IMG/VR virus record: IMGVR_UViG_3300035142_000016
Span: 1-45,675 of that record
Source of the DNA: a virus
DNA: 45,675 nt
Reading direction: 5' to 3' (one strand)
A model generated the notes under the pieces. The model saw only the letters and a list, made by a program, of their open reading frames with translations. It did no database searches and was not told where the DNA came from. The translations under genes and the position numbers were made by a program. Each line of letters begins with the position of its first letter. Positions within the stretch are counted from its first letter, which is position 1. Shown one piece after another: positions 1 through 24,511 of the stretch.

Positions 1-196
1 TCGGGCTCTGTGTTGTCAACGGCGTGGTAGAAGCGCAACTCGACGTCGATTATGCGGATCACCCCTTCGAGGACATCGCGCACGACACGTTTCGGCTGAC
101 GTCGAACTGGTACGGGGCCGCGCAAATTCTCTACAAGGTCCAGGTCGATTCGGTTTGGTGGGCCAAGGTCCGAATCGGTAACTTCCAAGCGCCCGA
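1..196. repeat. Terminal overlap, left copy
   Basis: Bases 1-196 match 45480-45675 with a single difference (A at 70, C at 45549). The repeat keeps one reading frame open across the junction. It is best explained as assembly overlap of a circular or circularly permuted molecule, not as a biological direct terminal repeat, because it sits in the middle of a gene. Confidence 0.9.
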
Positions 197-404
197 TTAT
201 GACGGGGTCGTGCAAACCGGTGGGATTACCGCGGGAAGCTCCGGTAACGTCAACCTTCACTATGAGGGCGCCGACACGTCGGAGACGCTAACCGTTCATC
301 ACGACCACATGGAAGGCTCGCACGACGCCGCCGCCAACGATGAGTGCCGTATAGCGTTCTTCAAAGACGTCCAGAAGTGGCGGATCAAGGAACTCGAGTG
401 CTAG
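1..404 (+). CDS. Distal tail protein, 3' part (joins 45092-45675 across the ends)
   Basis: This is the C-terminal part of a 263-residue protein whose start is at 45092; codons here begin at position 3. The ends overlap by 196 bases, so the gene is whole in the circular genome. The segment is rich in aromatic and beta-strand residues and has no recognised catalytic motif. It lies downstream of the tape measure and another tail gene, which suggests a tail-tip or adhesin component; that role is inferred from position only. At position 70 this copy encodes Glu where the right-end copy encodes Ala (45549). Confidence 0.75.
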   Translation, partial: GLCVVNGVVEAQLDVDYADHPFEDIAHDTFRLTSNWYGAAQILYKVQVDSVWWAKVRIGNFQAPDYDGVVQTGGITAGSSGNVNLHYEGADTSETLTVHHDHMEGSHDAAANDECRIAFFKDVQKWRIKELEC

Positions 405-407
405 CCG

Positions 408-1430
408 ATGAACTTCCTAATGAGTCCGTCCTGCGACTGTTGCGGCTGTCTCGCCGCCGAAAACGATTTTGCAAGTGGGATCGGCTCCGAATGGACAAAA
501 GCGGGAACGTGGACCGCTGTCGGGGGTTCCATTCGCACCAGTAGCACGAACGCAATCATCTATCGCAACAATGTTGCGCTTTCCGGTCGGCAGTGTGTGA
601 CCGGCGTTATTACGCCGACTGCCGGGGTTCACACGGGAACACCGCGGCTGATCATGGGGTACGATCCCGCAACGGGTTACTATGTTTTCGGCGAGTGTCA
701 TCTTAACGGGACATCGACGCTTCGCGCGCGAATCGGCAAGGTTGATGGGGGCGGAACGACGACGCTTTGTGAATGGAAGGGGAACGTCCCCGCCGGTCAA
801 AACGTCTTGAATTCGCTAACCTTCGACGGGTCCTACTTTGTGCTCGGCGAATTGTCGGGCTTGACGATGAACGCCTACAACGATCTACATTTGATCTACC
901 CAAGCGGGAATATCCTTCCTGGAACTCGCGCCGGTTTTGGCATGGGGGCCGTCGGTGATTCTACGTGCGACTTCGACGACTTCCGTTTGTTCTCGGACGT
1001 TTACCCCAACAAAACCGACTGCGTCCAGCACGCGAACTGCTGCCAAGATTGCGCGCCGGAACAGATGCAAGTGGTGATCGCGGGCGACTTCGACCCCTAC
1101 AGCGTCAACGCGGCTTGCCGCGAGTTTCCCGGTACGTACGTCTTGACACGAGCAAAACTCACGAGCAACGCTTCATGCGGTTGGGAAGGGACATTTTCGC
1201 CGGTCTATCCGGAGATCTACACGAAGTACGTTTACGTCTCGTATCAGCCGGGCGTTTGTCAAGTGCGGATCGAGACGACGGTCGGCGTGACGGTCTATCA
1301 TGTCTTGTTTCAAACGACCAGCACACCCACGCAACCCTGTACCGATCTTGCCGACGTAGTCCCGTACCATTCGCACAACGGTTGCAGTTTGGATAGCTCG
1401 ACGAAAACCGCAACGGTAACGGCTTTGTGA
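408..1430 (+). CDS. Cysteine-rich tail/adhesin-like protein
   Basis: A 340-residue protein starting 4 bases after the previous gene. Residues about 25-200 look like a LamG/concanavalin-type beta-sandwich, with the ending GFGMGAVGDSTCDFDDFRLF typical of such folds. The rest carries many cysteines, including SCDCCGC near the N terminus and CCQDC in the middle. No enzyme motif is visible. Its place after the tape measure and distal tail genes suggests a virion surface or receptor-binding component; this is inference. An alternative start is the ATG at 420. The next gene starts inside its stop codon (ATG at 1430), so the two are translationally coupled. Confidence 0.7.
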   Translation: MNFLMSPSCDCCGCLAAENDFASGIGSEWTKAGTWTAVGGSIRTSSTNAIIYRNNVALSGRQCVTGVITPTAGVHTGTPRLIMGYDPATGYYVFGECHLNGTSTLRARIGKVDGGGTTTLCEWKGNVPAGQNVLNSLTFDGSYFVLGELSGLTMNAYNDLHLIYPSGNILPGTRAGFGMGAVGDSTCDFDDFRLFSDVYPNKTDCVQHANCCQDCAPEQMQVVIAGDFDPYSVNAACREFPGTYVLTRAKLTSNASCGWEGTFSPVYPEIYTKYVYVSYQPGVCQVRIETTVGVTVYHVLFQTTSTPTQPCTDLADVVPYHSHNGCSLDSSTKTATVTAL

Positions 1431-2674
1431 TGTGGCAATGCCCAAAATGCGAGCTGCAACTCTCCGGCGCGCCGCCCCCTCCGATTCGGTGCGGTTGCGG
1501 GTTCGTCGATCTCTCGCCGCAATACGCCGACGGCGACACGCCGAAAGCCGCGGCGCGTGTCATCAGCAACTACCGCCCCCGGATCCCGGAAAGCCACAAG
1601 GAAGCGCGGCTCGAGCTTTGCCGCGATTGCGAACACATGCCCTGCCTGGGTTGCGGGCATGAACGCCTGACGGGCTATCTCGACACCAAATGCCCAAACG
1701 GGAAATGGGCGCCGCCGGCGTGTGACGTGCTCTACATCCGGCAACCCGGGCTAACCGACAAGTGGGCTTGGCACGGTCGGCACATGACGACCCTTGCGGA
1801 CGCCGCGGGAATTGCCTTAATCTACTGCCACCTTCTGCCGTTCGAGGATGAAGTCGAAAGAATTGAAACGCTCCGGCCGCGGCTGGTGATCAACTCGGCG
1901 CTCGCGATGACGGCGGAGAATATCCGGACGCTTTCCGATCGGTTTCCCGAGACGGTTTTCGTCACAATCAACCATTCGGCGGAATCGCATCTAGCCACGC
2001 ATCCGACGCTACAACCCAAATACCTCGACCATTTGCGGCTTGCCGAAAACAACCCGAATTGTTGGATAGGCAATCCCGACCCCCGGAATACAATGGGGCT
2101 TTTGCTCGATCGCCACGTCTGGATACCAAACGTTGTAATCCAGAAAATGAACGGCGTCCGGCGGTTGGGAAACCCTCCGACGTTGTCCCTAATCGCGAGG
2201 CACGATCCGGTCAAAAATCTCCCGGGGCAGCTCATGGCGGCGGCGATCGCTTCGAAGCGGCTACCGCTGAGGCTACGAGTCGCGGTCCGCAATGGAGACC
2301 CGGACATTATCCGCGGTTGGCTCGAGCGTGGCAGGGTCGAAGTCGAGATCCTCGAATGGGTGCGCTGGGTCTCGCATTTGACGCGGCTCGACAGTACGGA
2401 TGTCGGGCTGCAAGTCAGCTTTTGCGAGAGCTTCAACTATTGCGCCCTCGATCACTGTATGCGCGGCGTTCCGGTCGTCGGTAGCCAGGCGATCCAGTTT
2501 TTGCCGGAGTCGTGGAAGGCGGACCCAACCGACCCGGCAGACATCGCCGCGCGAGTGCTCGCCATCATCGAGGATTACCCGGCGCAATCGGCGGTCGCCA
2601 TCCAAACCGCAAACGCTGTCGCCGAGCACAACAACGCCGCATTCGTTCGCGTTCTTCAGGAGCTGCTTTCGTGA
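1430..2674 (+). CDS. Zinc-ribbon plus GT-B-type glycosyltransferase-like protein
   Basis: A 414-residue protein. The first 75 residues have several Cys pairs (CPKC, CGCG, CRDC, CLGCGH) that look like zinc-binding ribbons. The remainder resembles group-1 (GT-B) glycosyltransferases: LSLIARHDPVKNLPGQLMAA matches the usual start of the C-terminal Rossmann domain, and SFCESFNYCALDHCMRGVPV matches the nucleotide-sugar-binding region with E-x-F. The start is the ATG overlapping the previous stop; an in-frame GTG lies one codon upstream. It is followed, with overlap, by a sulfotransferase gene, so the pair probably modifies a glycan. Target (virion protein or host surface) is unknown. Confidence 0.7.
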   Translation: MWQCPKCELQLSGAPPPPIRCGCGFVDLSPQYADGDTPKAAARVISNYRPRIPESHKEARLELCRDCEHMPCLGCGHERLTGYLDTKCPNGKWAPPACDVLYIRQPGLTDKWAWHGRHMTTLADAAGIALIYCHLLPFEDEVERIETLRPRLVINSALAMTAENIRTLSDRFPETVFVTINHSAESHLATHPTLQPKYLDHLRLAENNPNCWIGNPDPRNTMGLLLDRHVWIPNVVIQKMNGVRRLGNPPTLSLIARHDPVKNLPGQLMAAAIASKRLPLRLRVAVRNGDPDIIRGWLERGRVEVEILEWVRWVSHLTRLDSTDVGLQVSFCESFNYCALDHCMRGVPVVGSQAIQFLPESWKADPTDPADIAARVLAIIEDYPAQSAVAIQTANAVAEHNNAAFVRVLQELLS

Positions 2675-3243
2675 ACTTTTGGATTGCCGCATGCGGAAGG
2701 TCGGGTACGACGTGGTTGGCTTGGATGCTCGACCACTCACCGACACACACCGTACGCCACGAGCAAGCCGACAAGCACACCGCGCACGCTCCGGAGTATT
2801 GGCAGCCGTTCCCCGTCGAACGATGGTCTGGGGGTAACTACGGCGAGTGTCACGGGCATCTGAGGCGGTATCTCTCCCCAGCGTACGTCGGGCCGGAACG
2901 AAACATCCCGCGGCGTGCGGTGTTGCGCCGGAACGTGAAGGACGTCATCGCGTCGTGGATGAACCGACGGCAAAGACAGGCGCACGATTTGCCGTGGATC
3001 GTGCGCGCCGTCTGTCGCATTGATCGACTATTGGTGGACTATGCGGCGAGTGATCCCGGTTGTCGGGAGATCCACCTGGAAGATATCAGCGGTTGCCTGC
3101 GCGACGCTCAAGAGCTGGTCGACTGGCTCGAGTTGGACTTCGAGGTAACGCCTCGTATGCTGTTGACGCGGAAAAACGCGACCGCGTCGCGCTGGTGGGA
3201 GTGGGATAGCAACGCCGACAAGATCTTCGACGCATTATCATGA
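2671..3243 (+). CDS. Sulfotransferase-family protein
   Basis: A 190-residue protein with a GTG start at 2671 that overlaps the previous stop, and AGGAG placed 8 bases upstream; this start puts the PAPS 5'-phosphosulfate loop (CGRSGTTWLAWML) right at the N terminus as in the family. The second family motif, for the 3'-phosphate of PAPS, fits RRAVLRRNVKDVIASWMNRR. Sulfotransferases move sulfate from PAPS to a hydroxyl or amine, often on sugars. Next to a glycosyltransferase, a sulfated glycan product is the natural inference. It ends the rightward late transcript and faces leftward genes. Confidence 0.75.
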   Translation: MNFWIAACGRSGTTWLAWMLDHSPTHTVRHEQADKHTAHAPEYWQPFPVERWSGGNYGECHGHLRRYLSPAYVGPERNIPRRAVLRRNVKDVIASWMNRRQRQAHDLPWIVRAVCRIDRLLVDYAASDPGCREIHLEDISGCLRDAQELVDWLELDFEVTPRMLLTRKNATASRWWEWDSNADKIFDALS

Positions 3244-3280
3244 AAAATATCGTTATTCTGTCATCTCGCAAACAGAATCG
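3243..3280 (-). terminator. Terminator candidate for the leftward genes
   Basis: ATTCTGT (3255-3261) pairs with ACAGAAT (3272-3278) over a 10-base loop. Read leftward it is followed within six bases by TATTTTT. It overlaps the last codons of the 3253-3471 gene and lies between convergent genes, where a terminator is expected. Confidence 0.45.
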
Positions 3281-3471
3281 GAATCCTCTTTGGCGGGAGA
3301 GATTCGCAACCCAATACACTCGATGTCAACCCCCATAGCGCTACCCGGCAGGTTGTCCATGAGTTTTCTCAGCAATGACGCCAAGTTTGCTGATTCAACG
3401 GGGTTTGTGCTGTTTGGTGCCGTAACAACACCGCCCGGCCCTTTGATTGTGAAAAAGATGTCCCACTTCAT
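3253..3471 (-). CDS. Small protein of unknown function
   Basis: A 72-residue protein read leftward. The ATG (3469-3471) has a clear ribosome site, GGGGAGGAA, seven bases upstream, which is why I accept it over the overlapping rightward frames. The N terminus (MKWDIFFTIKGPGG) looks like a beta-hairpin; no family was recognised. It is the last gene of the leftward block after the DNA methylase, 34 bases away. Confidence 0.6.
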   Translation of the reverse strand: MKWDIFFTIKGPGGVVTAPNSTNPVESANLASLLRKLMDNLPGSAMGVDIECIGLRISPAKEDSDSVCEMTE

Positions 3472-3505
3472 TGCTCGTTTCCTCCCCGTAAAACGCCTCG
3501 GTTTG

Positions 3506-4591
3506 TCAAGCAGATTTCGTCCGCATAATCAATACGTCCTCGTGGTCGATTCGGGGCGAGCCCTTCGACTCACAGAGACGCCTAAAGAACGATTTTCTTT
3601 CGACTGTCCGAACCTCTTCCCCGCCGAATAGCGATGGATGCCGCTCCTCTTTGACAAGGCTTGCCTGTATCCATTCCACCATCTGGAAGCCGCACGCCTC
3701 GCACAACCGCCGCCAGTCGTCGGAGAAGGGGACACGTTTGCCAGCGCGAACGAAGTCCTTAAGAACCCACACCGCTACGCCCCCCGGCTTCAAGATGGCG
3801 TGGCATTGCTGGACTATCTCGCGTGCAGCGGACCAGAAGGTCTCGCCTTCCGTGTGTTTGAGTTGCCCAGGCGAATCGCCGTAGGTCTTTTGCTCGTCGC
3901 GTTTCAGTTGCCGTAGTCGCGCCTCATCACTCGCACCATGCCCACGACCAGCCTGCAGAGCGTCCCTTGGATCCTTGAACTTCCCTTCACGGAAGCCGCC
4001 TTCGCAGTTTTTCTCCCACGGTGGGCTCGTCACCACTGCGTCTACGTCGCCTGCCTTCATGCCGCCGAGCTGGCCAGGGGTGTCGCCGTAGTCATCGATA
4101 CACCGCTTGCCTTGCGTTAATCCTTGGCCCGTTTTGGGAACGCCGCCGCTTAACGCCGTTTCGCTATACGGTGGCGAGCTTACGATGCAGTCCGCTTGCC
4201 CCCCCAGAATCGCACACAGTTGCCGAGAATCGCCCTGAACGATACTTGCGTCCCCGTTTGGGTAGAATGTCGCCCACTTGTCGAGGTTGGCTTGGGCTAA
4301 TTCTCGAAAGCGAGGCTCCAATTCCACTCCGCGCCAGATAGCCCCGATCTGCAGCGCTCCCAACGCACCGAGAGCCACGCCACCGAACGGATCGACCACA
4401 ACGGAGCCGGAGCCGATGCCGTAGTTGCTCGCAAGGTGCTGGTAGATTCGACGAATCATGCCAGGGGCGAACTTGGCCGGTCACGGGTGGGCGAAGGCTT
4501 CGTCCACAATTACGGATTTCCAGGTGTCGTCATAACACCCGTTCCATGTTGTGGTAAGCCAATCGCCCACCCTTGTTTCCTTATTTGACAT
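3506..4591 (-). pseudogene. N4/N6 DNA methylase interrupted by an in-frame TGA
   Basis: Read leftward, codons from the ATG at 4591 give 36 residues ending DEAFAHP, then TGA (4481-4483), then PAKFAPGMIRRIYQHL and the rest of the enzyme in the same frame. HPAKF is the conserved start of this methylase family, so the stop falls inside a conserved motif, with the Pro codon duplicated on either side. The body (317 residues from ATG 4459) has the AdoMet motif DPFGG and two catalytic-type motifs, SSPPYSE and TSPPWE, which suits amino-methylation of A or C. ATG 4459 has no ribosome site. Options are a dead gene, stop read-through, two translated pieces, or a sequence error. Other genes here end in TGA, so reassignment is unlikely. 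Confidence 0.75.
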
Positions 4592-5345: not shown

Positions 5346-6272
5346 ATGTCTCCCGACGTCATCGAATGTACGACCCGCCCCGAATGGCTGCAGCGTCGCC
5401 GCGATTTTCTGCAATCCACCGATTCGGCGGCAATTCTCGGCGTCGGGTACGACGGAACGAGCGAGCATACCGTTTGGTACGACAAAATTCACGGCGGCGA
5501 CGATCCGGAGGTCGCGAAGCGGCTGCAGATCGGGAAGCTGATCGAGCCGAGCTTGCGCGAGATCTTCACGCTCGAGACGGAGTTGCCTTGCGAGCCGGCC
5601 GGCGAGTTCTCGATCTACCGTCATCCTGAGATCTCCTACATCGGCGCGACGCTGGATGCGTGGACGGAGGATCCGCAATTCGGACGGGTCCCGGTCGAGT
5701 TGAAGAACGTCGACCAGTTTCTAGCCGGCGATTGGGGAGGCAACGAGCCGCCTTTGAAGTTCACGGTTCAAGTTCAACACCAGATGTTGGCGACCGGTAC
5801 CAACTGCGCGTACGTCTTCGCGCTGATCGGCGGCAACTCTCCGGTATCGATTCGGGTCGAGCGTCACCAGGATTTCATCAACGGGTTGATGATGAAGCTC
5901 GCGGATTTTTGGGGATACGTCCAGCGCCGCGAGTGCCCTCCGGCAGACGAGACGGCGGCGGCTTCTCGTGTGTTGGCGAAGTTGTATCCGCACGACAGCG
6001 GCGAGACGGTGGATCTTCCGGCGGAGTTGGGGGAGACGCACTTCAATCTGAAGCGCGCGAAGGGGACGATCGCCGACGCGGAGCGCGTGAAGTCCTACTG
6101 CGAGAATCAGATCAAGGAGGCGATCGGCGGCGCGACGTGGGGGAGGATTCCCGGCGTCAACGGTTACTACTCGTGGAAGCGACAAAGTCGGGTCGTGCGT
6201 TGTCCGCATTGTGACGAGATCACGAGCGAGGCGGAGTTCCGAGTTCTGCGGAAGTGCAAGCGGAATCGGTAG
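5346..6272 (+). CDS. YqaJ-type (lambda Exo-like) recombination exonuclease
   Basis: A 308-residue PD-(D/E)XK nuclease. The core shows EPSLREIFTLET, then GATLDAW and VPVELKNV, which match the metal-binding Asp and the E-x-K of YqaJ/lambda exonuclease. Such enzymes resect double-stranded ends 5'->3' and hand the strand to a partner annealase; the RecT gene lies 350 bases downstream. The start ATG 5346 has GAAGG eight bases upstream; a TTG at 5325 would place the start inside the terminator tail. It is the first large gene after the repressor-controlled promoter. Confidence 0.85.
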   Translation: MSPDVIECTTRPEWLQRRRDFLQSTDSAAILGVGYDGTSEHTVWYDKIHGGDDPEVAKRLQIGKLIEPSLREIFTLETELPCEPAGEFSIYRHPEISYIGATLDAWTEDPQFGRVPVELKNVDQFLAGDWGGNEPPLKFTVQVQHQMLATGTNCAYVFALIGGNSPVSIRVERHQDFINGLMMKLADFWGYVQRRECPPADETAAASRVLAKLYPHDSGETVDLPAELGETHFNLKRAKGTIADAERVKSYCENQIKEAIGGATWGRIPGVNGYYSWKRQSRVVRCPHCDEITSEAEFRVLRKCKRNR

Positions 6273-6274
6273 CG

Positions 6275-6376
6275 ATGACTCTCCTAACGTTTTTGGAAAG
6301 TATCGGCGTGCAGTTTTCCCTCGACTGGGATGATCAAGTGAGACCAGAACGAGAAAGACTGATATGCAGGTCATGA
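6275..6376 (+). CDS. Very short ORF, doubtful
   Basis: A 33-codon frame directly after the exonuclease gene, overlapping the start of the next small gene. It has no good ribosome site and no recognisable motif. It fills an otherwise empty 90-base gap and may simply be leader sequence. Confidence 0.25.
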   Translation: MTLLTFLESIGVQFSLDWDDQVRPERERLICRS

Positions 6377-6528
6377 CGCCAATCGACAAGAATCGCACCG
6401 CGATTTGGAATTATGTCGTGTTTATCTGCCCCCGATGTTTGGAAACGAAACACGTACCAGTTCCGGTGGAACGCCACCCTATATGTCGGTGTGACGAAGA
6501 TGACGAAGATGACGAGGATGACGAATAG
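6364..6528 (+). CDS. Small zinc-ribbon protein with acidic tail
   Basis: A 54-residue frame. Cys pairs in FICPRCLETKH and PICRCD could bind one zinc ion. The last 11 residues are only Asp and Glu (DEDDEDDEDDE), encoded by a tandem GACGAAGAT-like repeat. The ribosome site is weak, and an ATG at 6373 is an alternative start. It sits between the exonuclease and RecT genes. Function is unknown; an acidic tail could mimic DNA or contact a basic partner, but nothing here proves it. Confidence 0.5.
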   Translation: MQVMTPIDKNRTAIWNYVVFICPRCLETKHVPVPVERHPICRCDEDDEDDEDDE

Positions 6529-6619
6529 CGAACCCTCGCAACGGCGAATTAGCCGAAAATAACTGGTGACGATGCGAAGCGAAGTAGTCATATAGAGACC
6601 AAATAGGAGACCAAGACAA

Positions 6620-7588
6620 ATGGCGACAGCCCCAACGGAACAACAGGGCGCGGCGGTACCGGTAGCAACGCCACAATTCGACGAAGTCGTTGCGGCGACA
6701 GAACAGCGGCGATCGATCGCAAGGGAAGCGGCGGCGCTTCTGGGAGTCAGTCCCGATAAGCTATGCGGACTTCTGCGCAACGTCTGGACGACGTCGAAAG
6801 GTCAGCCGGATTTGACGGATCAAGAGATGTTTTCGGGAATCTCCCTCGTGGCGCGGTATCGCCTCGATCCGATCACGCGAGAGATCTACGTCACGAAAAC
6901 GCAAGGTCGGTTGATCACCGTTATCGGAATCGACGGCTGGATCAAGATCCTTGATCGGACGGACCACTACGACGGCTTCGAAGTTGATATACATCACGAT
7001 GAAAAGGGGCGCCTTGAGTGGGTCGAGACGACGATCTACAGCAAAACGCGGAGCAAGCCGACCAGCTACCGCGCTTACTGGTCGGAATATGAGAAGGTCG
7101 GCGGCTTCGTCTCGAAAAACATGCCTTCTCACATGCTGCGGATATTTTCCCTCCGGCATGCGGCGCGGTTGTTCGTTCCGCTTGGCGCGACGGTCGTGAC
7201 CGAAGAAGAAGCCCAATACCTGATGCAACCGCAAGACGCACCGGGACAACCTTCGAGCTTGGACGAGTTGACCGAACGGCTGATGCAACCGGTCGAGAAG
7301 CCGGACGTGACGTCTGCGGAGCCGGGGGAGGGGATTGTCGAGAATTGCGAGGCGTCGCCGGATCCGAAGGCGAAGCCAAAGGACGCAGTAGCGGAGGACA
7401 GCGAACAGGCTTTGCACGACGCGACGACGCGCGCGATGAACGAGCTAGAAGTCTGCGAAACGCTGCAGGACGTCGGGAAGGCAATCAAGGATCTCAAGGG
7501 ACTAATCGACCGCGAGGACTGGCTCGAACGCCTCGAAGCAATGGGAGAGAGTCGGCGCGAACAGATTCGGGCGCAGCGGAAGAAGTAA
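6620..7588 (+). CDS. recT: RecT/Bet-family single-strand annealing protein
   Basis: A 322-residue protein. The RecT/Bet core is clear: the run YRLDPITREIYVTK followed by GRLITVIGIDGWIKI, then the Y-S-K and MPSHMLRIFSLRHAARL segments near residues 150-190. The family coats single strands and anneals complementary DNA, working with the exonuclease upstream. The C-terminal third is acidic and helical, as usual. The start has GGAG 11 bases upstream. It ends just before a strong terminator, closing the first early unit. Confidence 0.85.
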   Translation: MATAPTEQQGAAVPVATPQFDEVVAATEQRRSIAREAAALLGVSPDKLCGLLRNVWTTSKGQPDLTDQEMFSGISLVARYRLDPITREIYVTKTQGRLITVIGIDGWIKILDRTDHYDGFEVDIHHDEKGRLEWVETTIYSKTRSKPTSYRAYWSEYEKVGGFVSKNMPSHMLRIFSLRHAARLFVPLGATVVTEEEAQYLMQPQDAPGQPSSLDELTERLMQPVEKPDVTSAEPGEGIVENCEASPDPKAKPKDAVAEDSEQALHDATTRAMNELEVCETLQDVGKAIKDLKGLIDREDWLERLEAMGESRREQIRAQRKK

Positions 7589-7594
7589 CTACAC

Positions 7595-7672
7595 ACGCAA
7601 CGCGGCTAGGCGTTGGTTGATCGCCGACGTCGAACGTCGCTACCTGGACCGGCTGCCGTGTTGCGTTTTTTT
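7595..7672 (+). terminator. Branched terminator after recT
   Basis: ACGCAACGCGGC (7595-7606) pairs with GCCGTGTTGCGT (7655-7666), twelve pairs including one G-U, and is followed by seven T. The 48-base interior contains another perfect hairpin, CGACGT-CGA-ACGTCG (7625-7639). The long interior is unusual for a simple terminator. Confidence 0.7.
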
Positions 7673-7708
7673 CAGTCCGGGGGATTCATTGCCAGGAGTG
7701 AAAATTAA

Positions 7709-8944
7709 ATGACAAAGCGACTACAAGCGGTGGATTTGTTTTGCGGCGCCGGCGGGTCAACACTCGGCGCGGTTATGTCCGGACGGGTTGACGTCCGGCT
7801 GGCCGTTAACCACTGGCGTATAGCGATCTACAGCCACCAAGACAATCACCCCGACACAGAACACCTATGCGCGAAGATCGACCATGTCGACCCGCGACAC
7901 GATCCGGCTGTACCGGATTTTGACCTTCTCTTGGCTTCGCCGGAGTGCACGCACTTTAGCGTTGCCCGCGGCGCTCGGCCCGTACAGGAACAGAAACGCG
8001 CTACCCCTTGGCATGTGGCGATATGGGCGGAAGCGAGGCGCCCGAAGTGGATCGTGGTCGAGAACGTCCGCGAGTTTCGGGACTGGGGTCCGATCGGCAA
8101 ACGCGGCAAGCCCCTTAAGAGTAAAAAGGGCGTAACGTTCCGGGCGTGGGTCAACGTCCTCGAGTCGTTGGGTTATCAGGTTGATCATCAGATTCTTAAC
8201 GCTGCGGATTTCGGGGAAGCGACACAGCGGAAGCGGTTGTTTGTGATCGCTCGCCGCGGGAACTCGCGGAAAGATATCCCTTGGCCGGAGCCAAGCCACG
8301 CCGGCAACTTCCGGCCGGCTTATGAGATTATCGACTGGTCGAGGCCTTGTCCTTCGATCTTTGGGCGATCTCGTCCGCTTGCGGACAAGACGCTGCGACG
8401 TATCGAGATCGGGTTGCGTCGGTTTGTCGGCGAAGCGGCGGAGCCGTTTATCGTCAAGATGCGAGGCACTTCGACGGTTGCGAGTATGTCCGAACCACTG
8501 CCGACGGTGACCGCCGGGGGAACGCATCTTGCGATCGCGACGCCGTTCATTATGGACGTCAACCACGGAGGTTCGGACGCTCGTTGCTATCCGGTCGATC
8601 GTCCGCTTAACACGATCACGACCAAGCGAGGGCAATCTCTCGTTGTCCCGTTTCTCACGAAGTATTACGGCACGGGGACAGCGGTCCCGGTAACGGAGCC
8701 CCTCGACACGGTCACAACGAAACCTCGCTTCGGACTGGCGATCGCGACGTTACAAAACACAATGCGCGAGCTTGGCGTGGCGGACGTTGGCTTCCGCATG
8801 CTGGATATCGACGAGCTGGCAATGGCTATGGGTTTCCCGCGTGGTTACATCCTGCACGGGAACAAGGCGGAGCAAATCAGACAGGTAGGCAATGCGGTCT
8901 GTCCTCGAGTGATGAAGGCGATTTGCGAGGCGATCGCGGGTTAG
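7709..8944 (+). CDS. C5-cytosine DNA methyltransferase
   Basis: A 411-residue enzyme. Motif I is DLFCGAGGST near the N terminus. The catalytic loop reads LASPECTHFS, that is PEC where most family members have PPC; the catalytic Cys is present. Motif VI is VVENV, and the later segment RQVGNAVCPRVM fits motif X. The target-recognition region holds repeated phrases such as EPLPTVTAGGTHLA, RPLNTITTKRG and EPLDTVTTKPRF. It probably protects phage DNA from restriction. AGGAG precedes the start by 10 bases. It is one of three DNA methylase genes in the window. Confidence 0.9.
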   Translation: MTKRLQAVDLFCGAGGSTLGAVMSGRVDVRLAVNHWRIAIYSHQDNHPDTEHLCAKIDHVDPRHDPAVPDFDLLLASPECTHFSVARGARPVQEQKRATPWHVAIWAEARRPKWIVVENVREFRDWGPIGKRGKPLKSKKGVTFRAWVNVLESLGYQVDHQILNAADFGEATQRKRLFVIARRGNSRKDIPWPEPSHAGNFRPAYEIIDWSRPCPSIFGRSRPLADKTLRRIEIGLRRFVGEAAEPFIVKMRGTSTVASMSEPLPTVTAGGTHLAIATPFIMDVNHGGSDARCYPVDRPLNTITTKRGQSLVVPFLTKYYGTGTAVPVTEPLDTVTTKPRFGLAIATLQNTMRELGVADVGFRMLDIDELAMAMGFPRGYILHGNKAEQIRQVGNAVCPRVMKAICEAIAG

Positions 8945-9146: not shown

Positions 9147-10637
9147 ATGACGGCGATACCCGAACACGTCGACGTTGAAAATATCGGACCGATCGATCAC
9201 GTACGGATCCCCCTCGAGGCTGGCAAGATCACCGTGCTACGCGCTCGCAACGGCAAGGGTAAGTCGCAAGCGCTCGAAGCGATCGCAAGCGGCGTCGGGC
9301 GAAAGACGCGTCTCGACGTCCGCGACGGTGCCCTTCGCGGGCAAGTGGCGTTTGGCGAGGATCTCGTTCTGCGCGTCGGTCGATCGACGACGCGCAAAGG
9401 CGAGCTGGTCGTCGGGACGCTCGAGGGTCGCTTCAAGTGTGGCGACATCGTCGACCCCGGTATAAAGTCGCCGGAAGCGGCGGACGCGAAGCGGATCAAG
9501 GCTCTGTTGCAGCTCGCCGGAGCGGCGGCAGATCCTACCGCGTTTTATTCTCTTGTCGGCGGGAAGGAGGCCTTTGAGGCGTACGTCGGTCCAGGGGCGC
9601 TCGCGACCGATGATCTGATCGAGATGGCGGCAAGGGTCAAGCGCGATCTGGAAGGCGGCGCGCGTAAGCACGAAGAACAAGCCGAGCACGCGGAAGGCCA
9701 CGCTCGAGGCGCTCGAGAGTCCGCCGACGGCGTCGATCTCAAGGCGCCGGACGACGCGGATCAACTGCAAGCCGCGCTCGAGACGGCGATCCGACAAGAG
9801 ACGGCGATCCGCGAACAGTACCACGCTGCAAGGGAGCAGGACGAGCAGAACAGGCAGGCGAGAGACGCTCTCGAGGACGCTTCTGCGATGTACGACGGCC
9901 CGACCGTCGAGCAGGCGAACGCGTGGGTACGGAAAGCGACAGAGGACGTAGCGGCGACGACCAGAGCCGTACAGGAGGCGGAGCGTGCGCTGGAGGCTGC
10001 CAAAGCAGAATCCAAAGCGGCCGACCAGGAGCTACGTCACGCAACCAAACAGCAACACGCGGCACAGAACCACGAGAAGACGGTGGCCGCTTGGCGTGAG
10101 CAACTCGACAAGCCGGCGTTGCCATCGCCTCCCGCGTCCTACATGGACGAATCGAAGCAACTCGTGACGGCGGCGCGACTCGCGGTTGAGACTGGCGCAG
10201 TTGTCCGCGCTGCCAAAACGCATCTTGTCCGCGCGACTCAGTTCGAGGGCAAGGCGAAAGAGCACCGCAAAGCCGGCGATCTGTTGCGAGAAGCGGCCAA
10301 GGGAACCGATGAGGTTCTTTCGGGGATCGTGGCTACATTAGGTTGTCCCCTTCGCGTCGAAGCCGGCCGGTTGGTGATTGACACGCACAGAGGCGCAACC
10401 TACTTCGGCGATCTCTCCGACGGGGAACGCTGGAAGTTGGTCCTTGATATCGCGATCGACGCCGTCGGGCCAAACGGGCTTTTGGCGATTGAGCAAGACG
10501 CGTGGGAAGGGTTGGACCCAATCAATAGGGAGATGATCGCGCAGCACGTTGCGTCGTCGACTGTGGCGTTTGTGACCGCGGAGGCGTCCGACGATGAGGA
10601 ATTGAGGGCGGAAGTGTTCGAGGCTGACGGCGTGTGA
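9147..10637 (+). CDS. SbcC/Rad50-like ATPase
   Basis: A 496-residue protein with ABC-type ATPase halves separated by a long coiled coil. Walker A is RARNGKGKS at about residues 33-41. The middle (about 165-370) is charged and alanine-rich, typical of a coiled coil, with no CXXC zinc hook seen. The C-terminal half has the signature LSDGERWKLVLD and Walker B GLLAIEQDAWEGLD. It is much shorter than cellular SbcC. Phages often carry such proteins beside exonuclease/RecT genes; a role in DNA end processing is likely. No SbcD-like nuclease partner was found. Confidence 0.8.
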   Translation: MTAIPEHVDVENIGPIDHVRIPLEAGKITVLRARNGKGKSQALEAIASGVGRKTRLDVRDGALRGQVAFGEDLVLRVGRSTTRKGELVVGTLEGRFKCGDIVDPGIKSPEAADAKRIKALLQLAGAAADPTAFYSLVGGKEAFEAYVGPGALATDDLIEMAARVKRDLEGGARKHEEQAEHAEGHARGARESADGVDLKAPDDADQLQAALETAIRQETAIREQYHAAREQDEQNRQARDALEDASAMYDGPTVEQANAWVRKATEDVAATTRAVQEAERALEAAKAESKAADQELRHATKQQHAAQNHEKTVAAWREQLDKPALPSPPASYMDESKQLVTAARLAVETGAVVRAAKTHLVRATQFEGKAKEHRKAGDLLREAAKGTDEVLSGIVATLGCPLRVEAGRLVIDTHRGATYFGDLSDGERWKLVLDIAIDAVGPNGLLAIEQDAWEGLDPINREMIAQHVASSTVAFVTAEASDDEELRAEVFEADGV

Positions 10638-16360: not shown

Positions 16361-16380
16361 ACGGAGCGAAGCCGACATGA
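16361..16380 (+). repeat. 20-base start-region repeat, copy 1
   Basis: ACGGAGCGAAGCCGACATGA spans the start codon of the next gene and recurs at 16540-16559 with one change. Confidence 0.8.
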
Positions 16381-16559
16381 GCCATCCAAGCTATCCAGAC
16401 ATGAAATGCCCCTGGTGTTGTCGCATTCTGTTTACGCGAGGGCGAACCGAGATTCCCGTAATGTTCAAGTGTGTGCATTGTCTTCGGCTCGTGCGGTTGC
16501 GTAATGGAGAGTACCGCAAGGCGATTCTCAAGACATCCAACGGAGCGAAGCCGATATGA
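16377..16559 (+). CDS. Small zinc-ribbon protein
   Basis: A 60-residue protein. CPWCCRILF and FKCVHCLRL form a four-Cys zinc site. The ATG lies inside a 20-base sequence that is repeated exactly at the start of the following gene, so the gene is bracketed by two near-identical translation start regions. Function unknown. Confidence 0.6.
   Translation: MSHPSYPDMKCPWCCRILFTRGRTEIPVMFKCVHCLRLVRLRNGEYRKAILKTSNGAKPI
16540..16559 (+). repeat. 20-base start-region repeat, copy 2
   Basis: This matches 16361-16380 in 19 of 20 positions, and includes the ATG of the replication-like gene at 16556. Confidence 0.8.
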
Positions 16560-17888: not shown

Positions 17889-18377
17889 ATGAACCAGCAA
17901 ACCCTACTACCAGAAGACCCAGAGCCGGCGATCGTCTTCGCAGCGTACGGACAGCCGAAGACGGCGGGATCGAAGCGAGCGTTCAAAACGAAAACCGGCA
18001 AGGTTGTAGTGACGGACGATTGCAAAGAATCGAAGACTTGGCGCGACGTGATTGCCGCGGCGGCTCGGCAAGCGTATCCGGGGCTTCTGCTGGACGGTCC
18101 GCTTCGCGTCGACTTCCTCTTCGTGGTACCGCGGCCGAAGACGGTCAAGCGCGAGATGCCGACGACGAAGCCGGACGTGTTGAAACTCGCCAGGGCTGCC
18201 GAGGATGCCCTCAGCGGCGTTCTTTGGGTCGACGATGCGAGGATTACGACGGAGTCCTTGCGCAAGATCTACGGCAACGTCGCGTGTTGTGTGGTGCGTG
18301 TGCGGAGGGACGTGACAAACGGGGCGCCGGAGTGGGCGCAGAAGCTGATCGAGACGCCGGCGGAGAAACCGTTTTGA
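17889..18377 (+). CDS. rusA: RusA-family Holliday junction resolvase
   Basis: A 162-residue protein. FAAYGQPKTAGSKRAF at the start, LRVDFLFVVPRP in the middle, and TKPDVLKLARAAEDALSGVL followed by DDARI contain the acidic residues that bind metal in RusA. The enzyme cuts four-way junctions, useful for resolving recombination intermediates made by the exonuclease/RecT pair before packaging. Length is slightly over the usual 120-140. The ribosome site is weak. Confidence 0.85.
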   Translation: MNQQTLLPEDPEPAIVFAAYGQPKTAGSKRAFKTKTGKVVVTDDCKESKTWRDVIAAAARQAYPGLLLDGPLRVDFLFVVPRPKTVKREMPTTKPDVLKLARAAEDALSGVLWVDDARITTESLRKIYGNVACCVVRVRRDVTNGAPEWAQKLIETPAEKPF

Positions 18378-18402
18378 CACCCTACTACGAAAAAATTTTG
18401 TT

Positions 18403-19293
18403 TTGAAAATCACCGCCTTAGCCCCCTGGTTTGGCAGCAAGCGCAATCTCGCCGGCGAGATCATCGCCGAGCTGGGGAAACACTCGATCTACTGGGAGCC
18501 GTTTTGCGGGTCGATGTCGATTCTGCTGAATAAAGAACCTTGCATTATGGAGACGGTGAACGACTTGCACCGGGATTTGATCAACCTTGCGCGAGTCGTG
18601 CAGGATGACACGGAAGGGCCGCGGCTGTTCGATCGACTCAACCGAACCGCAATGCACGAAGGACTATTCGCCGACGCCTCCGCGGCGATCGAGGGCGCGG
18701 AGGCCTCCGACTTCGACCCCCTTCGAGCGTACCAATATTGCGTTGTGGCTTGGCTTGGCCGCAACGGGGTGGCAGGAACGGCGTCCTACAACGGGCATTT
18801 CTGCGTACGGTACACGGGCAACGGCGGGCATGCTGCCAAACGCTGGCGATCGGTGATCGAGTCGATACCGGATTGGTGGTTTCGACTCCAAAACGTCACG
18901 ATTTTATGCCGCGACGCCTTCGAGCTTCTCGAGCGAATCGACGACAAAGCTGCAACGGTGATCTACATCGACCCGCCCTATATCGAGAAGGGAACGACGT
19001 ATTTGCATGATTTCGGCATGCAGTCGAAGCGGTCGCAAGACAAAGCCGCGGCGATCGAAGAACATTGCCGGCTTGCCTCGCTTCTTCAGCGGTTCACGAA
19101 AGCTCGAGTCGTTGTGAGCTACTACGAACACGAATTGCTTGCCGAACTCTACCCGGGTTGGACAAAGCGGCCGCTCAAGGCGACGAAGTCGCTTGTCAGC
19201 CAGGGGCGGCGAGACAAAACCGGGGCGGTTGCAGCCCCCGAGGTCCTGTTGATCAACGGCGAAAGCTACGCGGAAGAAAGAACTTTATTCTAG
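18403..19293 (+). CDS. Dam-type (D12 class) adenine-N6 DNA methyltransferase
   Basis: A 296-residue enzyme. The AdoMet motif APWFGSKRNLAGEI is at the N terminus and the catalytic motif IYIDPPYIEKGT lies near residue 190, the order of alpha-class Dam enzymes. The only start before the essential first motif is a TTG (18403), preceded by a poly-A/T stretch and no clear ribosome site, so expression may be low. Together with two other methylases it may shield phage DNA from restriction. Confidence 0.85.
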   Translation: MKITALAPWFGSKRNLAGEIIAELGKHSIYWEPFCGSMSILLNKEPCIMETVNDLHRDLINLARVVQDDTEGPRLFDRLNRTAMHEGLFADASAAIEGAEASDFDPLRAYQYCVVAWLGRNGVAGTASYNGHFCVRYTGNGGHAAKRWRSVIESIPDWWFRLQNVTILCRDAFELLERIDDKAATVIYIDPPYIEKGTTYLHDFGMQSKRSQDKAAAIEEHCRLASLLQRFTKARVVVSYYEHELLAELYPGWTKRPLKATKSLVSQGRRDKTGAVAAPEVLLINGESYAEERTLF

Positions 19294-19316: not shown

Positions 19317-19934
19317 ATGACGGCGATGTATGAAGTAGTCTGCGAGTTTACCGAACCGCTACTTGGGACGGTTCCAAAAGATCCAAAACTGTACGAAACC
19401 TACCTACAGTCAAAGACCGACGCGGAGACGGACGACGAACTTGAGACCGTCCCCGACGATCCGGAGGCGGTTGGGACTGGTTTCCACGAACATGACGGAA
19501 AACCAATTCTCTACAATTACACGATCAAGGGTTTTTTCAAGGACGCTTGTTCCTGCCTTCGACGTGTGCCGAAAACGCAAAGCGCGGCGCTCAAAGCTCA
19601 CAAAAAGGTGATCGACGGCTTGATCTTCGTCGAACCGCGGCGAATCGTCATCGACACAGGGGGGAAGGAACTTTCCCGGATCGAGCGTCCCTTGCGAGCA
19701 CAGACGGCGCAAGGCGATAGGGTGGCGCTTGCTCGATCAGACGCCGCGCCTCCCGGGTCGATCATTACCTTCCAGATTTTGGCGCTTAACGTGCCGGAGA
19801 AACTCCTGCGCGAATGGCTGGAATATGGAGCGCTGCGAGGGCTTGGACAGTGGCGTAACGCGGACTATGGGCGGTTTTCCTATGAGATGCACCAAGTTAC
19901 AAGCGAAGGCAAAGCAGTGTGCAGCGAGGCGTAG
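19317..19934 (+). CDS. Stand-alone RAMP-like protein
   Basis: A 205-residue protein with AAAGG nine bases before its ATG. Three features suggest the RAMP (Cas5/Cas6/Cas7-like) fold: an opening strand EVVCEFTEPLLGTVPKDP; the phrase LYNYTIKGFFKDACSCLRR (about 66-83), like the 'GSSLKGxxR' helix of Cas7-type proteins; and the C-terminal glycine-rich loop GLGQWRNADYGRF (175-187). Between them lies RPLRAQTAQGDRVALARSD. There is no CRISPR array or other cas gene here. The last 10 codons run into the pentanucleotide repeat that follows. RNA binding is inferred from fold resemblance only. Confidence 0.55.
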   Translation: MTAMYEVVCEFTEPLLGTVPKDPKLYETYLQSKTDAETDDELETVPDDPEAVGTGFHEHDGKPILYNYTIKGFFKDACSCLRRVPKTQSAALKAHKKVIDGLIFVEPRRIVIDTGGKELSRIERPLRAQTAQGDRVALARSDAAPPGSIITFQILALNVPEKLLREWLEYGALRGLGQWRNADYGRFSYEMHQVTSEGKAVCSEA

Positions 19935-20110
19935 AGCAAAGGCAACGCGCAGCAACGCGGCGCCACGGCAGGGCGAGGCAAAGGCATGGCAATGCGAGGC
20001 ACAGCAAAGGCACAGCAGGGCAATGCACCGCCGGGCCGAGCGTAGCAACGGCAAGGCAGCGCTTGGCATGGCGCCGCAACGCAAAGGCAACGCGCAGCGG
20101 GGCATGGCGC
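19902..20110 (+). repeat. Degenerate pentanucleotide (NNNGC) tract
   Basis: About 200 bases break into units of five, mostly ending in GC (AATGC, GAGGC, ACAGC, AGGGC, AAGGC, ATGGC, AACGC), with some six-base units such as AAAGGC. GCAAAGGCAACGCGCAGC occurs exactly twice (19936-19953 and 20081-20098). It begins within the last codons of the RAMP-like gene and extends beyond its stop. Frames through it are low-complexity (rich in Ala, Gln, Arg, Lys, Asn), and I do not call a protein. It has no fixed spacer pattern, so it is not a CRISPR array. Confidence 0.8.
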
Positions 20111-20321
20111 TCGTGATCAAGGCCCCCCACGCGGTTGAAATCGTAATTGACAACAACCCCCCCAAGGTTTAGGTTTTACGAAACCTTTCCAACGGTGCGC
20201 CATGTCTTCCAACCGACCCCCACGCCAAACAAAGGCAGCTTCAAACGTCTGGGGGTCGTCTCGACTTCGCGCACTTCTGCGACTCTGCCACCAATCCAAC
20301 ACACATAGGGAGTCCCTTGCC
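20111..20321 (+). other. Non-coding stretch after the repeat tract
   Basis: Together with the tract, about 390 bases lack an accepted gene. AGGTTT-TACG-AAACCT (20171-20186) is a hairpin followed by only two T, a weak terminator. A frame crossing the tract ends at 20172 but shows no family features. An in-frame extension upstream of 20322 is rejected as coding because ATG 20322 has a better ribosome site and signal peptide. Confidence 0.45.
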
Positions 20322-20759: not shown

Positions 20760-22220
20760 GTGAAACTACTTTTTCTCATGATCGCCGCTTGCGGGGCAAC
20801 GTATGAATTCGACGTACCAATACACGGACCCGACTTGACGGAGTTGCGAGCGAACACCGTCGTCGACGCACCGGAGGGCGCCACTTTCGCGCTTGAGTGG
20901 CCGAACGAGGCGCAGACGACCGTCCGGTTCGAAGATGGGAAATACGTCCTGTACCACGAACTGACGGTGAAGGTTCGAACCGACACACCAGGCGTCTACG
21001 TGGTCAGCCAAGCGACGACGCCGATCGAGACGACGCGCCACGTTGTCCAGGAAGAACCGACGCCGAAGCCGGACCCAAAGCCGGACCCGGATACACAGGC
21101 ACGTTGGGCCGTCATCGTCGACAAATCGGTTGATCGTCCGTTGGAGGTCGGACGTTGCATAAGTGACCCTCGCTTGGCGCGGCTGTATGCAGAAACGCTA
21201 CGCGTAGCCGATCCGCATTTGGTCGACGAACACGGTCGGCAACCGGCATTACTCGAGAAAGCCTTCGTCGCCGCGGCACAAGCAGAATACCCCGCGTTGG
21301 TCCTTTTAGATGGCTCTGGGAACGTCCTCGGGGTTTCCAAGGACCTGGACGCCGATGAGGTTCTGAGGCTTGCGCCTAAGCTGCCACAGTCTGTGGCTAC
21401 GCAAAAGAAACAACTCGCCGCCGAAAAAGACGTTGGGTTGCAGTTCGCCGAAGACTTGCCGATTCCGATGCTGACGCTACCGGCCGGCGCCGACAAAGAA
21501 CTCGAGAAGGCACACCAAGAATCGCAATTTCCGTTTGGACTATTGCCGGAGTTCAACGAGGGAGCGCAACAAACCGAACCACCAGAGCCGGGGATCCTGG
21601 GAGGTATCCCCCTTGTCCCTGAATCGGAGTGGAAGGAACTCGGCCGGAAGGCGTTCATCGATCGGCTGCCGGTCACCAAGCAACTCGACGGAACGTGCGC
21701 GTCGGCCGCGACCGCTAAGGCGATCGAGGCGCAGCGGCTTTTGCAGGGACTTCCGTACGTCGAGATCTCGGAGATTGACATTTACGCGCACATAGCGCGA
21801 TGGGGGCGGGGATCCTCATTGCGCGATAACTTGGACCGTGTCACGCGGTACGGGGTAGCGTCGACCGACGTTGTTCCGCGTGCTTGGCCCCATCGGACCA
21901 ACGGGGACGCAGAAGCGGATCGAGCACGCCACAAAGTTCTCGAATCTCTTCGCGTCACGCCGAGCTTCGAGGCCGTGGGTAGCGTGCTGCAGCATGGGCA
22001 TTTTGTGGTGATCGGCGTACGTTGGCCCGGCGGGGGCGGGCATGCGATCGTTGCTATCGACACGGTGCGAAAAAACAACGATTGGGCGATTTTAATTCGC
22101 AACTCATGGGGTAAAGACTGGGGCTCCGACGGTTGCGGACTGTTGAGTCGAAACACGCTGCGCACATTGCCCAACTATGGCGCCCTCGCCATCGGAGCGG
22201 TCACGTTTTCGGATAATTGA
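20760..22220 (+). CDS. Papain-family (C1) cysteine peptidase, exported or lipid-anchored
   Basis: A 486-residue protein with GTG start and AAAGGAGG upstream. The N terminus MKLLFLMIAACGATYEF can be read as a short lipoprotein signal (IAAC). A beta-rich region (about 15-95), a Pro linker (EEPTPKPDPKPDPD) and a middle domain with VLLDGSGNVLG precede the peptidase. The catalytic triad is visible: Cys in LDGTCASAATAKAI, His in GGGHAIVAID, Asn in LIRNSWGKDWGSDG. Phage C1 peptidases are uncommon. It could act in lysis, entry or virion maturation; no standard endolysin was found in the window. Confidence 0.8.
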   Translation: MKLLFLMIAACGATYEFDVPIHGPDLTELRANTVVDAPEGATFALEWPNEAQTTVRFEDGKYVLYHELTVKVRTDTPGVYVVSQATTPIETTRHVVQEEPTPKPDPKPDPDTQARWAVIVDKSVDRPLEVGRCISDPRLARLYAETLRVADPHLVDEHGRQPALLEKAFVAAAQAEYPALVLLDGSGNVLGVSKDLDADEVLRLAPKLPQSVATQKKQLAAEKDVGLQFAEDLPIPMLTLPAGADKELEKAHQESQFPFGLLPEFNEGAQQTEPPEPGILGGIPLVPESEWKELGRKAFIDRLPVTKQLDGTCASAATAKAIEAQRLLQGLPYVEISEIDIYAHIARWGRGSSLRDNLDRVTRYGVASTDVVPRAWPHRTNGDAEADRARHKVLESLRVTPSFEAVGSVLQHGHFVVIGVRWPGGGGHAIVAIDTVRKNNDWAILIRNSWGKDWGSDGCGLLSRNTLRTLPNYGALAIGAVTFSDN

Positions 22221-23099: not shown

Positions 23100-24511
23100 T
23101 GGCTCGGCTGTTTGACGATGCATCGAGCGAATATCTGAAGTGGGACGGCACTCCGCCAGTGAGCGGCGAACCGTTCGCGATGGGCTGTTTGTTTCGGTCT
23201 GATGACGCAGCCGCAAATCAGACGCTTATGTGGATAGGCGACAAAGATGTGTCTGATCAGGGATACGGTGTTCGCGCAAACGGGGCTTCTGGCGGTGATC
23301 CGGTCGGGGCATATTCCTACGCAGGCTCGTTTGTGTCGGCAAATACAACCAGCGGTTTTAGTGCCAATGTGTGGCACCATGCGCTTGGTGTTTGGGCGAC
23401 ATCGTCTGACCGGCGAGCAATGATTGATGGAGGAAACAAGGGGACGGAATCAACTAGTATGTCGCCCAGTGGTTGGGACCGCCTAGCTATTGGTGTTTTA
23501 GGGCGAAACACTCCGTCATTAGCAGGCTATACGAGCGGTCGGATTGCTGAGGCCGCGATTTGGGATTTGTCTGCGTGGCCTGGTGCAACCGATGGCGATA
23601 AAGCGGACGAGTTTGAGCGGGTGTGTGCAACTGCTCTGGCCGCTGGTTTTTCCCCGCTATTTTTCCCGCTGGGACTCGTTGCGTACTGGCCGTTGGGTGG
23701 CATGTTGTCTACAGACGATGCAGACGTAGACATCATTGGCGGGTACGACATGACGGCGGTTAACACGCCAAGCACCGCCGAGCATTACAGTGGGTTAATT
23801 CTGCCCGCACGCATTGGTTCGGTGATTGCTAGTGCCGGCGGCGGCGTGGACATCAATTGCACGCTCGGCACCGCAACTATCTCATCCTATGCGGCGAGCG
23901 TCGAAGCCGGGACAACGATCGACGCCACGCTCGGAACTGTCACCATCGCGAGCAACGCGGCAACGGTCGAACAGGGGACAACCGTCGATTGTACGCTTGG
24001 AACCGTTACGATCGCCGCACATTCAGCGGAGGTTGAACAGGGGACCACGGTCGACTGTACTCTCGGGACGGTCACCATTGCGGCTTTGTCTGCAGAGGTC
24101 GAACAGGGGACCACGGTCGACTGTACTCTCGGAACGGTGACAATCGCCGCGCACGCCGCAACGGTCGAAGCGGGGACCACCGTCTCGTGTTCATTGGGGA
24201 CGGTCACGATCGCCAGTTACGCGGCAACCGTTGAAACCGGCGTTGATGTCGATTGCACACTGGGAACGGTCACCATTGCCTCGCATGCTGCGGAAGTCGA
24301 GGTCGGGACCACCGTCGATTGTACTCTCGGCGCCGTGGTCATTGCGGCGCTCGCGGCAACCGTTGAAATATCGGCGACAACCGCGATTACGCATTATCAC
24401 AATTTGCGAGGGCCCTCGCGCGAACGCTATCGCTTGCGGGGACCTTCAAAGCGACGATATTCCCTCAAGGGACCTTCACAAGAACGCTACCGACTAAAGG
24501 GAGGTCGATAA
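23099..24511 (+). CDS. LamG-like protein with 22-residue repeats and basic tail repeats
   Basis: A 470-residue protein. The first 220 residues look like a concanavalin/LamG sandwich with hydrophobic strands (ANVWHHALGVWATSSDRRAM, RIAEAAIWDLSAWPG). About residues 248-424 are eight tandem 22-residue repeats built on GTTVDCTLGTVTIAAHSAEV. The C terminus has three copies of a ten-residue RLRGPSKRRY-like unit. Repeats of this kind suit an extended fibre or adhesin on the virion. It overlaps the previous gene by one base. Confidence 0.65.
   Translation: MARLFDDASSEYLKWDGTPPVSGEPFAMGCLFRSDDAAANQTLMWIGDKDVSDQGYGVRANGASGGDPVGAYSYAGSFVSANTTSGFSANVWHHALGVWATSSDRRAMIDGGNKGTESTSMSPSGWDRLAIGVLGRNTPSLAGYTSGRIAEAAIWDLSAWPGATDGDKADEFERVCATALAAGFSPLFFPLGLVAYWPLGGMLSTDDADVDIIGGYDMTAVNTPSTAEHYSGLILPARIGSVIASAGGGVDINCTLGTATISSYAASVEAGTTIDATLGTVTIASNAATVEQGTTVDCTLGTVTIAAHSAEVEQGTTVDCTLGTVTIAALSAEVEQGTTVDCTLGTVTIAAHAATVEAGTTVSCSLGTVTIASYAATVETGVDVDCTLGTVTIASHAAEVEVGTTVDCTLGAVVIAALAATVEISATTAITHYHNLRGPSRERYRLRGPSKRRYSLKGPSQERYRLKGGR
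23840..24372 (+). repeat. Eight tandem 66-bp coding repeats
   Basis: These repeats encode the 22-residue units in the LamG-like protein. Units 3-5 are nearly identical in DNA, and outer units are more diverged, which suggests expansion from the middle by unequal recombination. Confidence 0.8.

Follow-up and report, generated by a model that had tools for sequence, protein, structure and literature searches.

What does a RAMP-like protein do in the early region of a phage? The question is raised by an open reading frame at positions 19317-19934 (+ strand; ATG at 19317, stop codon at 19932-19934, 205 aa) of the virus record IMGVR_UViG_3300035142_000016, which was analysed over its whole length of 45,675 nt and is called the window here. 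An earlier note had read the product as a stand-alone Cas5/Cas7-like protein, with no array, Cas enzyme or anti-CRISPR-like partner, perhaps from a widespread and unexplained family. We argue that the locus is very probably a VIPR-type RNA-guided phage system. VIPR, first described in 2026, combines a phage-encoded ancestral RAMP (Vipr) with vrRNAs of alternating GGY/NN motifs; according to the main text of the preprint, VIPR RNPs use a gapped code to bind dsDNA and act as repressors of competing phages, and the type II examples come from SUSP1 and P. fulva (bioRxiv 2026.04.26.720920, PMC13142463).

The protein and its family

The open reading frame is a real gene, because 65 diverse homologues align with its product at a mean column identity of 45%. 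Invariant throughout this alignment are K71-G72-F73-F74-K75-D76-A77-C78, R124, G133, R135, G175, W179-R180-N181 and G185. The two elements that had first suggested a RAMP, the YTIKGFFKDA helix (residues 68-77) and the C-terminal glycine-rich loop GLGQWRNADYGRF (residues 175-187), are both present, rank together with RPLRAQTAQGERVALA among the best-conserved parts of the alignment and, since both hold invariant residues, represent conserved cores of the family.

Neither the protein nor its family could be matched significantly to Pfam, PHROGs or NCBIfam, and no RAMP profile, Cas model or PADLOC model matched the protein. Its kinship emerges from structure: an AlphaFold2 model built from the 65-member alignment is confident (mean pLDDT 91.2, pTM 0.86), and the best 50 Foldseek matches listed against the PDB are all CRISPR RAMP effector subunits, led by a type VII Cas7 (E 1.6e-9) and including Csm3-type subunits, Cmr, Cas7-11, type III-D and type IV-A proteins. 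When the family profile was compared with PDB sequences, three scored at E < 0.01, and all are RAMPs, a type VII Cas7 (0.0031) and two Csm4 sequences (0.0037), each aligned at the C-terminal glycine-rich loop; hhalign detected no significant similarity between the family and a host Csm3-like protein. Because the Foldseek and profile matches are RAMPs, the ferredoxin-like core called for by the earlier note is in place, there is no clear match to another enzyme family, and the claim of a RAMP-like protein stands. RNA binding, which the note had drawn from the fold, would be a sensible expectation for a protein so modelled. The resemblance to RAMPs is already stated in an automatic database name, that of the family member A0A8S5R426 (Siphoviridae sp. 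ctcMb1; 49% identical, TM 0.73-0.77), which UniProt labels 'Cas system-associated RAMP superfamily protein', a label silent on array or function.

The impression that similar proteins exist in phages of unrelated hosts proved right. More than 100 homologues were found, both in phages and in contigs that had been binned to bacteria of five phyla: 80 kept loci come from IMG/VR and 27 from bacterial-genome contigs of Bacillota (Clostridia), Actinomycetota (Coriobacteriia), Synergistota, Planctomycetota and Verrucomicrobiota, nearly all of them MAGs, so that single host assignments may be wrong. Among annotated phages there are four homologues, 43-49% identical, each from a record of human faecal origin. 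The window being a virus record, and its relatives residing in 80 IMG/VR contigs and in bacterial MAG contigs, the origin of the family is phage or provirus. A scan found no relatives of the divergent protein of locus L107.

With Cas7 proteins of type VII and type III CRISPR systems (Cas7, Csm3) the family shares the fold and the C-terminal G-loop, but no CRISPR array and no Cas1, Cas10, Cas5 or Cas14 partner was found here. In line with the earlier note, no Cas enzyme was found nearby: the early proteins scanned gave no Cas match, no repeat-spacer array with a cas operon came to light, and Cas1 was not found in 15 viral contigs of the family. A separate phage-like locus in a Clostridia MAG (L125, genome G026, positions 1-3663) encodes an SSB, a Csf2/Cas7-like protein (PF03787, E 9.3e-5), a possible Cas5-like protein and a CysH-like protein (PAPS reductase), and resembles a phage-borne module of the type IV kind.

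In the window, early recombination and modification genes occupy the regions 5346-8944 and 17889-19293; they encode a YqaJ nuclease, RecT, a C5 cytosine methylase, a RusA resolvase and an adenine-type DNA methyltransferase (DPPY), the gene for the last lying directly upstream of the RAMP gene. Three further features of the window were noted: a 486-aa protein (20760-22220) with a weak C-terminal match to papain-like peptidases (PF00112), unusual beside early genes; an imperfect 66/132-nt tandem repeat (23900-24184) within the gene at 23567-24511; and a short leader-like repeat, CGGAGCGAAGCCGAYATG, at 16363-16379 and 16541-16557, ahead of two successive start codons.

The array beside the gene

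Contrary to the earlier reading, the gene has an array. Directly after its stop codon and on its strand, a GC-anchor chain runs from 19936 to 20111, comprising 28 GCNNN pentamers and six GCNNNG hexamers without a broken anchor, which we regard as a candidate vrRNA guide array. A weaker, broken start of the periodic tract (19903-19935, + strand) overlaps the 3' end of the gene, with the chain traceable from 19903 across one 7-nt slip. Segmentation of the chain places the first punctuation hexamer, GCAAAG, at 19936-19941, and the others, on the same strand, begin at 19962 (GCCACG), 19978 (GCAAAG), 20004 (GCAAAG), 20045 (GCAACG) and 20081 (GCAAAG), making four copies of GCAAAG and one each of GCCACG and GCAACG. 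The chain score of 29.2 compares with a maximum of 8.8 in 2000 dinucleotide-preserving shuffles and with at most 9.0 elsewhere in the window, and the array has the top lag-5 self-similarity of the entire window (identity 0.57 at lag 5 vs 0.25 at other lags).

The association extends across the family. The 108 homologous loci examined span 1.5 Mb and contain 242 lag-5 peaks, 228 of which fall no more than 1 kb from the RAMP gene. Flanks scoring above all of their shuffles occur at 103 of these loci vs 2 of the 94 control genes drawn from them; array segments read on the strand of the RAMP gene in 232 cases out of 234. A strict GC chain is found downstream of the gene in 58 loci and upstream in 18, and the gap to the next downstream gene of at least 100 aa has a median of 530 nt, compared with 82 elsewhere. 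Array length varies greatly among loci, reaching about 829 nt. The verdict of a partnerless, unexplained protein therefore gives way to one of a gene flanked by a pentanucleotide array in nearly all homologues, a kind of system of which an experimental description exists (PMC13142463). A conserved protein partner did not appear: in the neighbour analysis, for which we used our own gene calls made with a codon model, the commonest family within two genes of the RAMP gene occurred only 8 times over 100 loci, a count that partner or accessory (vap) genes of remote similarity could escape. A first clustering of neighbours was set aside, antisense shadow ORFs of the gene and the array having misled it.

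In the grammar of the arrays, the family pentamer consists of G, then C (87%) or T (13%), then N-N-N; the hexamer consensus is GCAANG, and hexamers are most commonly spaced by four to six pentamers. In logos arranged by distance from the hexamer, N positions carry at most 0.19 bits, the one exception being the first N of hexamer-adjacent pentamers, which favours purines. Between orthologous arrays (24 ordered locus pairs), substitution amounts to 3.5% at G and 6.8% at Y, rates somewhat lowered by the labelling of array positions from one sequence per pair, vs 21.2% at n1, 22.4% at n2 and 20.7% at n3, so that the N positions change 3-6 times faster than the GC scaffold. To judge from sequence, a conserved scaffold filled with hypervariable letters is the pattern of a guide array, unlike that of a cis-acting site or a coding repeat.

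A structured 3' tail was also sought: no shared motif follows 53 arrays, whose ends were taken from DNA and may differ from the true RNA ends, and the flank of the window array has a z-score of -0.33. The window and 11 relatives contain no hammerhead and no other relevant RNA when compared with Rfam.

Three loci illustrate how arrays differ. L015 (8654-9244) and L017 (8654-8914) belong to near-identical phage loci, and their arrays differ by an internal segment of ~330 nt, which suggests gain or loss of guide blocks via recombination between repeats. In L097 (Synergistaceae), the array lies in the 620-nt flank upstream of the RAMP gene at 9974 and consists of GANNN instead of GCNNN pentamers, with related hexamers and a strong GA-anchored chain score of 69; the anchor dinucleotide has changed in this lineage.

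Competing explanations and the relation to VIPR

Other roles for the protein and the tract can be imagined. The company of YqaJ, RecT, RusA and methyltransferase genes in the early region, together with SSB, RecT-like or helicase genes near many relatives, would suit a general single-strand-binding RAMP of phage replication or recombination, the tract serving as a cis-acting DNA or RNA element for binding, packaging or regulation. Such a site, however, would be expected to stay in place or to be preserved in full; what is preserved here is the GC scaffold only, while the N letters diverge, and the array stands upstream or downstream of the gene at very different lengths, which makes this explanation improbable. 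We give still less credence to a tract that arose by slippage or as low-complexity coding sequence, functionally unconnected to the gene, and consider it the least probable of all: long chance ORFs do cross the tract on both strands, but a period of 5 with interspersed 6-nt units is not a multiple of 3, control genes almost never have such tracts beside them, and pure slippage would yield identical units rather than a fixed scaffold with near-uniform letters.

The Cas7-like fold and the lack of a cas operon near the gene in the window could also befit a solo Cas7 mimic, a Cas-derived anti-CRISPR that disturbs class 1 CRISPR complexes of the host. This too is highly improbable, given that a PF03787 RAMP is present in only 6 of 26 host genomes (incomplete MAGs, in a count that leaves out type I), that strong conservation across contigs of five phyla is unusual for an anti-CRISPR, and that mimicry leaves the arrays unexplained.

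An RNA-guided system of the VIPR kind accommodates these observations. The locus and VIPR have in common a phage RAMP of ~20 kDa and of the single-RRM type with a G-loop, an adjacent tandem pentamer array in which the scaffold is conserved and other bases are hypervariable, and the absence of cas genes found alongside. For a direct comparison, the Vipr of SUSP1 was picked by position, size and flanking repeats; as a positive control, the same array search recovers the GGYNN arrays of this phage. In the SUSP1 Vipr model (pLDDT 73, built from five sequences), strands and helices follow one another as they do in the model of the 19317-19934 protein. The G-loop of this Vipr, GVGDWRPRFGRF, aligns with GLGQWRNSGKGRF of our protein, and its sole significant viral fold match, A0A8S5R8I9, is a significant match of our family as well. 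Similarity over the whole length is weak (hhalign probability 15-21%).

The differences concern chiefly the repeats. The anchor is GC (GA in L097) rather than GGY, and the GGY/NN consensus of the preprint's main text does not fit; each unit has three equally variable bases instead of two; GCAANG hexamers recur every 4-6 pentamers; the arrays are longer than those published (the window array has 34 units, and others extend to about 829 nt); and neither a tail nor a vap gene was detected at loci of the family. On these grounds we place the locus outside the published type II: it is VIPR-like in kind and set apart from that type as the main text describes it. It is almost certainly a member of the VIPR systems with a repeat layout unlike that of the preprint's main text. 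The preprint counts seven VIPR types, names six vap genes and refers both to staggered arrays and, in some types, to a related consensus (PMC13142463), and the GC-NNN branch may already be among the seven, for example in its supplement.

A model for guide use

At this locus the RAMP fold, the conserved G-loop, the array beside the gene in nearly all relatives, its conserved scaffold with hypervariable letters and its shared strand are observed; transcription, RNA loading, DNA binding and repression would follow by analogy with published type II systems. We posit that the RAMP protein, as a Vipr, binds the transcript of the adjacent tract with one subunit per pentamer, as Cas7 filaments and type II VIPR would lead one to expect. 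The GC of each unit would form the scaffold held by the protein, leaving the variable bases as a guide free to pair with DNA. The resulting filament would then attach to matching DNA. Since no conserved nuclease was found beside the gene, the probable effect is that binding itself represses the target genes, most plausibly those of competing phages or satellites.

How the three variable bases would be read depends on n3. If n3 is skipped, the published rule holds; if all three are read, the target consists of contiguous triplets. As both readings predict free variation at n3, sequence alone does not decide between them. Searches under a skip code and a contiguous triplet code identified no DNA target of any guide: short windows, one mismatch allowed, matched no more often than shuffled arrays, seeds extended under four codes did not exceed the shuffles, concatenated NNN triplets had no significant BLAST match, and four exact scans of IMG/VR produced 1, 1, 0 and 11 matches, about the chance number, none of which extends into neighbouring units. 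In a 20-base IMG/VR match, the skipped base falls at the first codon position, not at the wobble position. The absence of targets is unsurprising for poorly sampled phages. A rather unlikely elaboration is that the family is a VIPR branch with a decoding of its own, in which GC would be flipped out, NNN paired and contiguous triplets read. In long arrays of such a branch the GCAANG hexamers would punctuate the guides, fixing their register or their boundaries, and no accessory protein would be involved.

Among RNA-guided ways of recognising DNA, VIPR is a very recent class and may represent an ancestor of CRISPR. To this class the GC-NNN branch would add a widespread form with long, naturally diverse arrays that seems to need one small protein only, and its differing repeat grammar offers a direct test of the VIPR code, two bases and a skip vs three bases.
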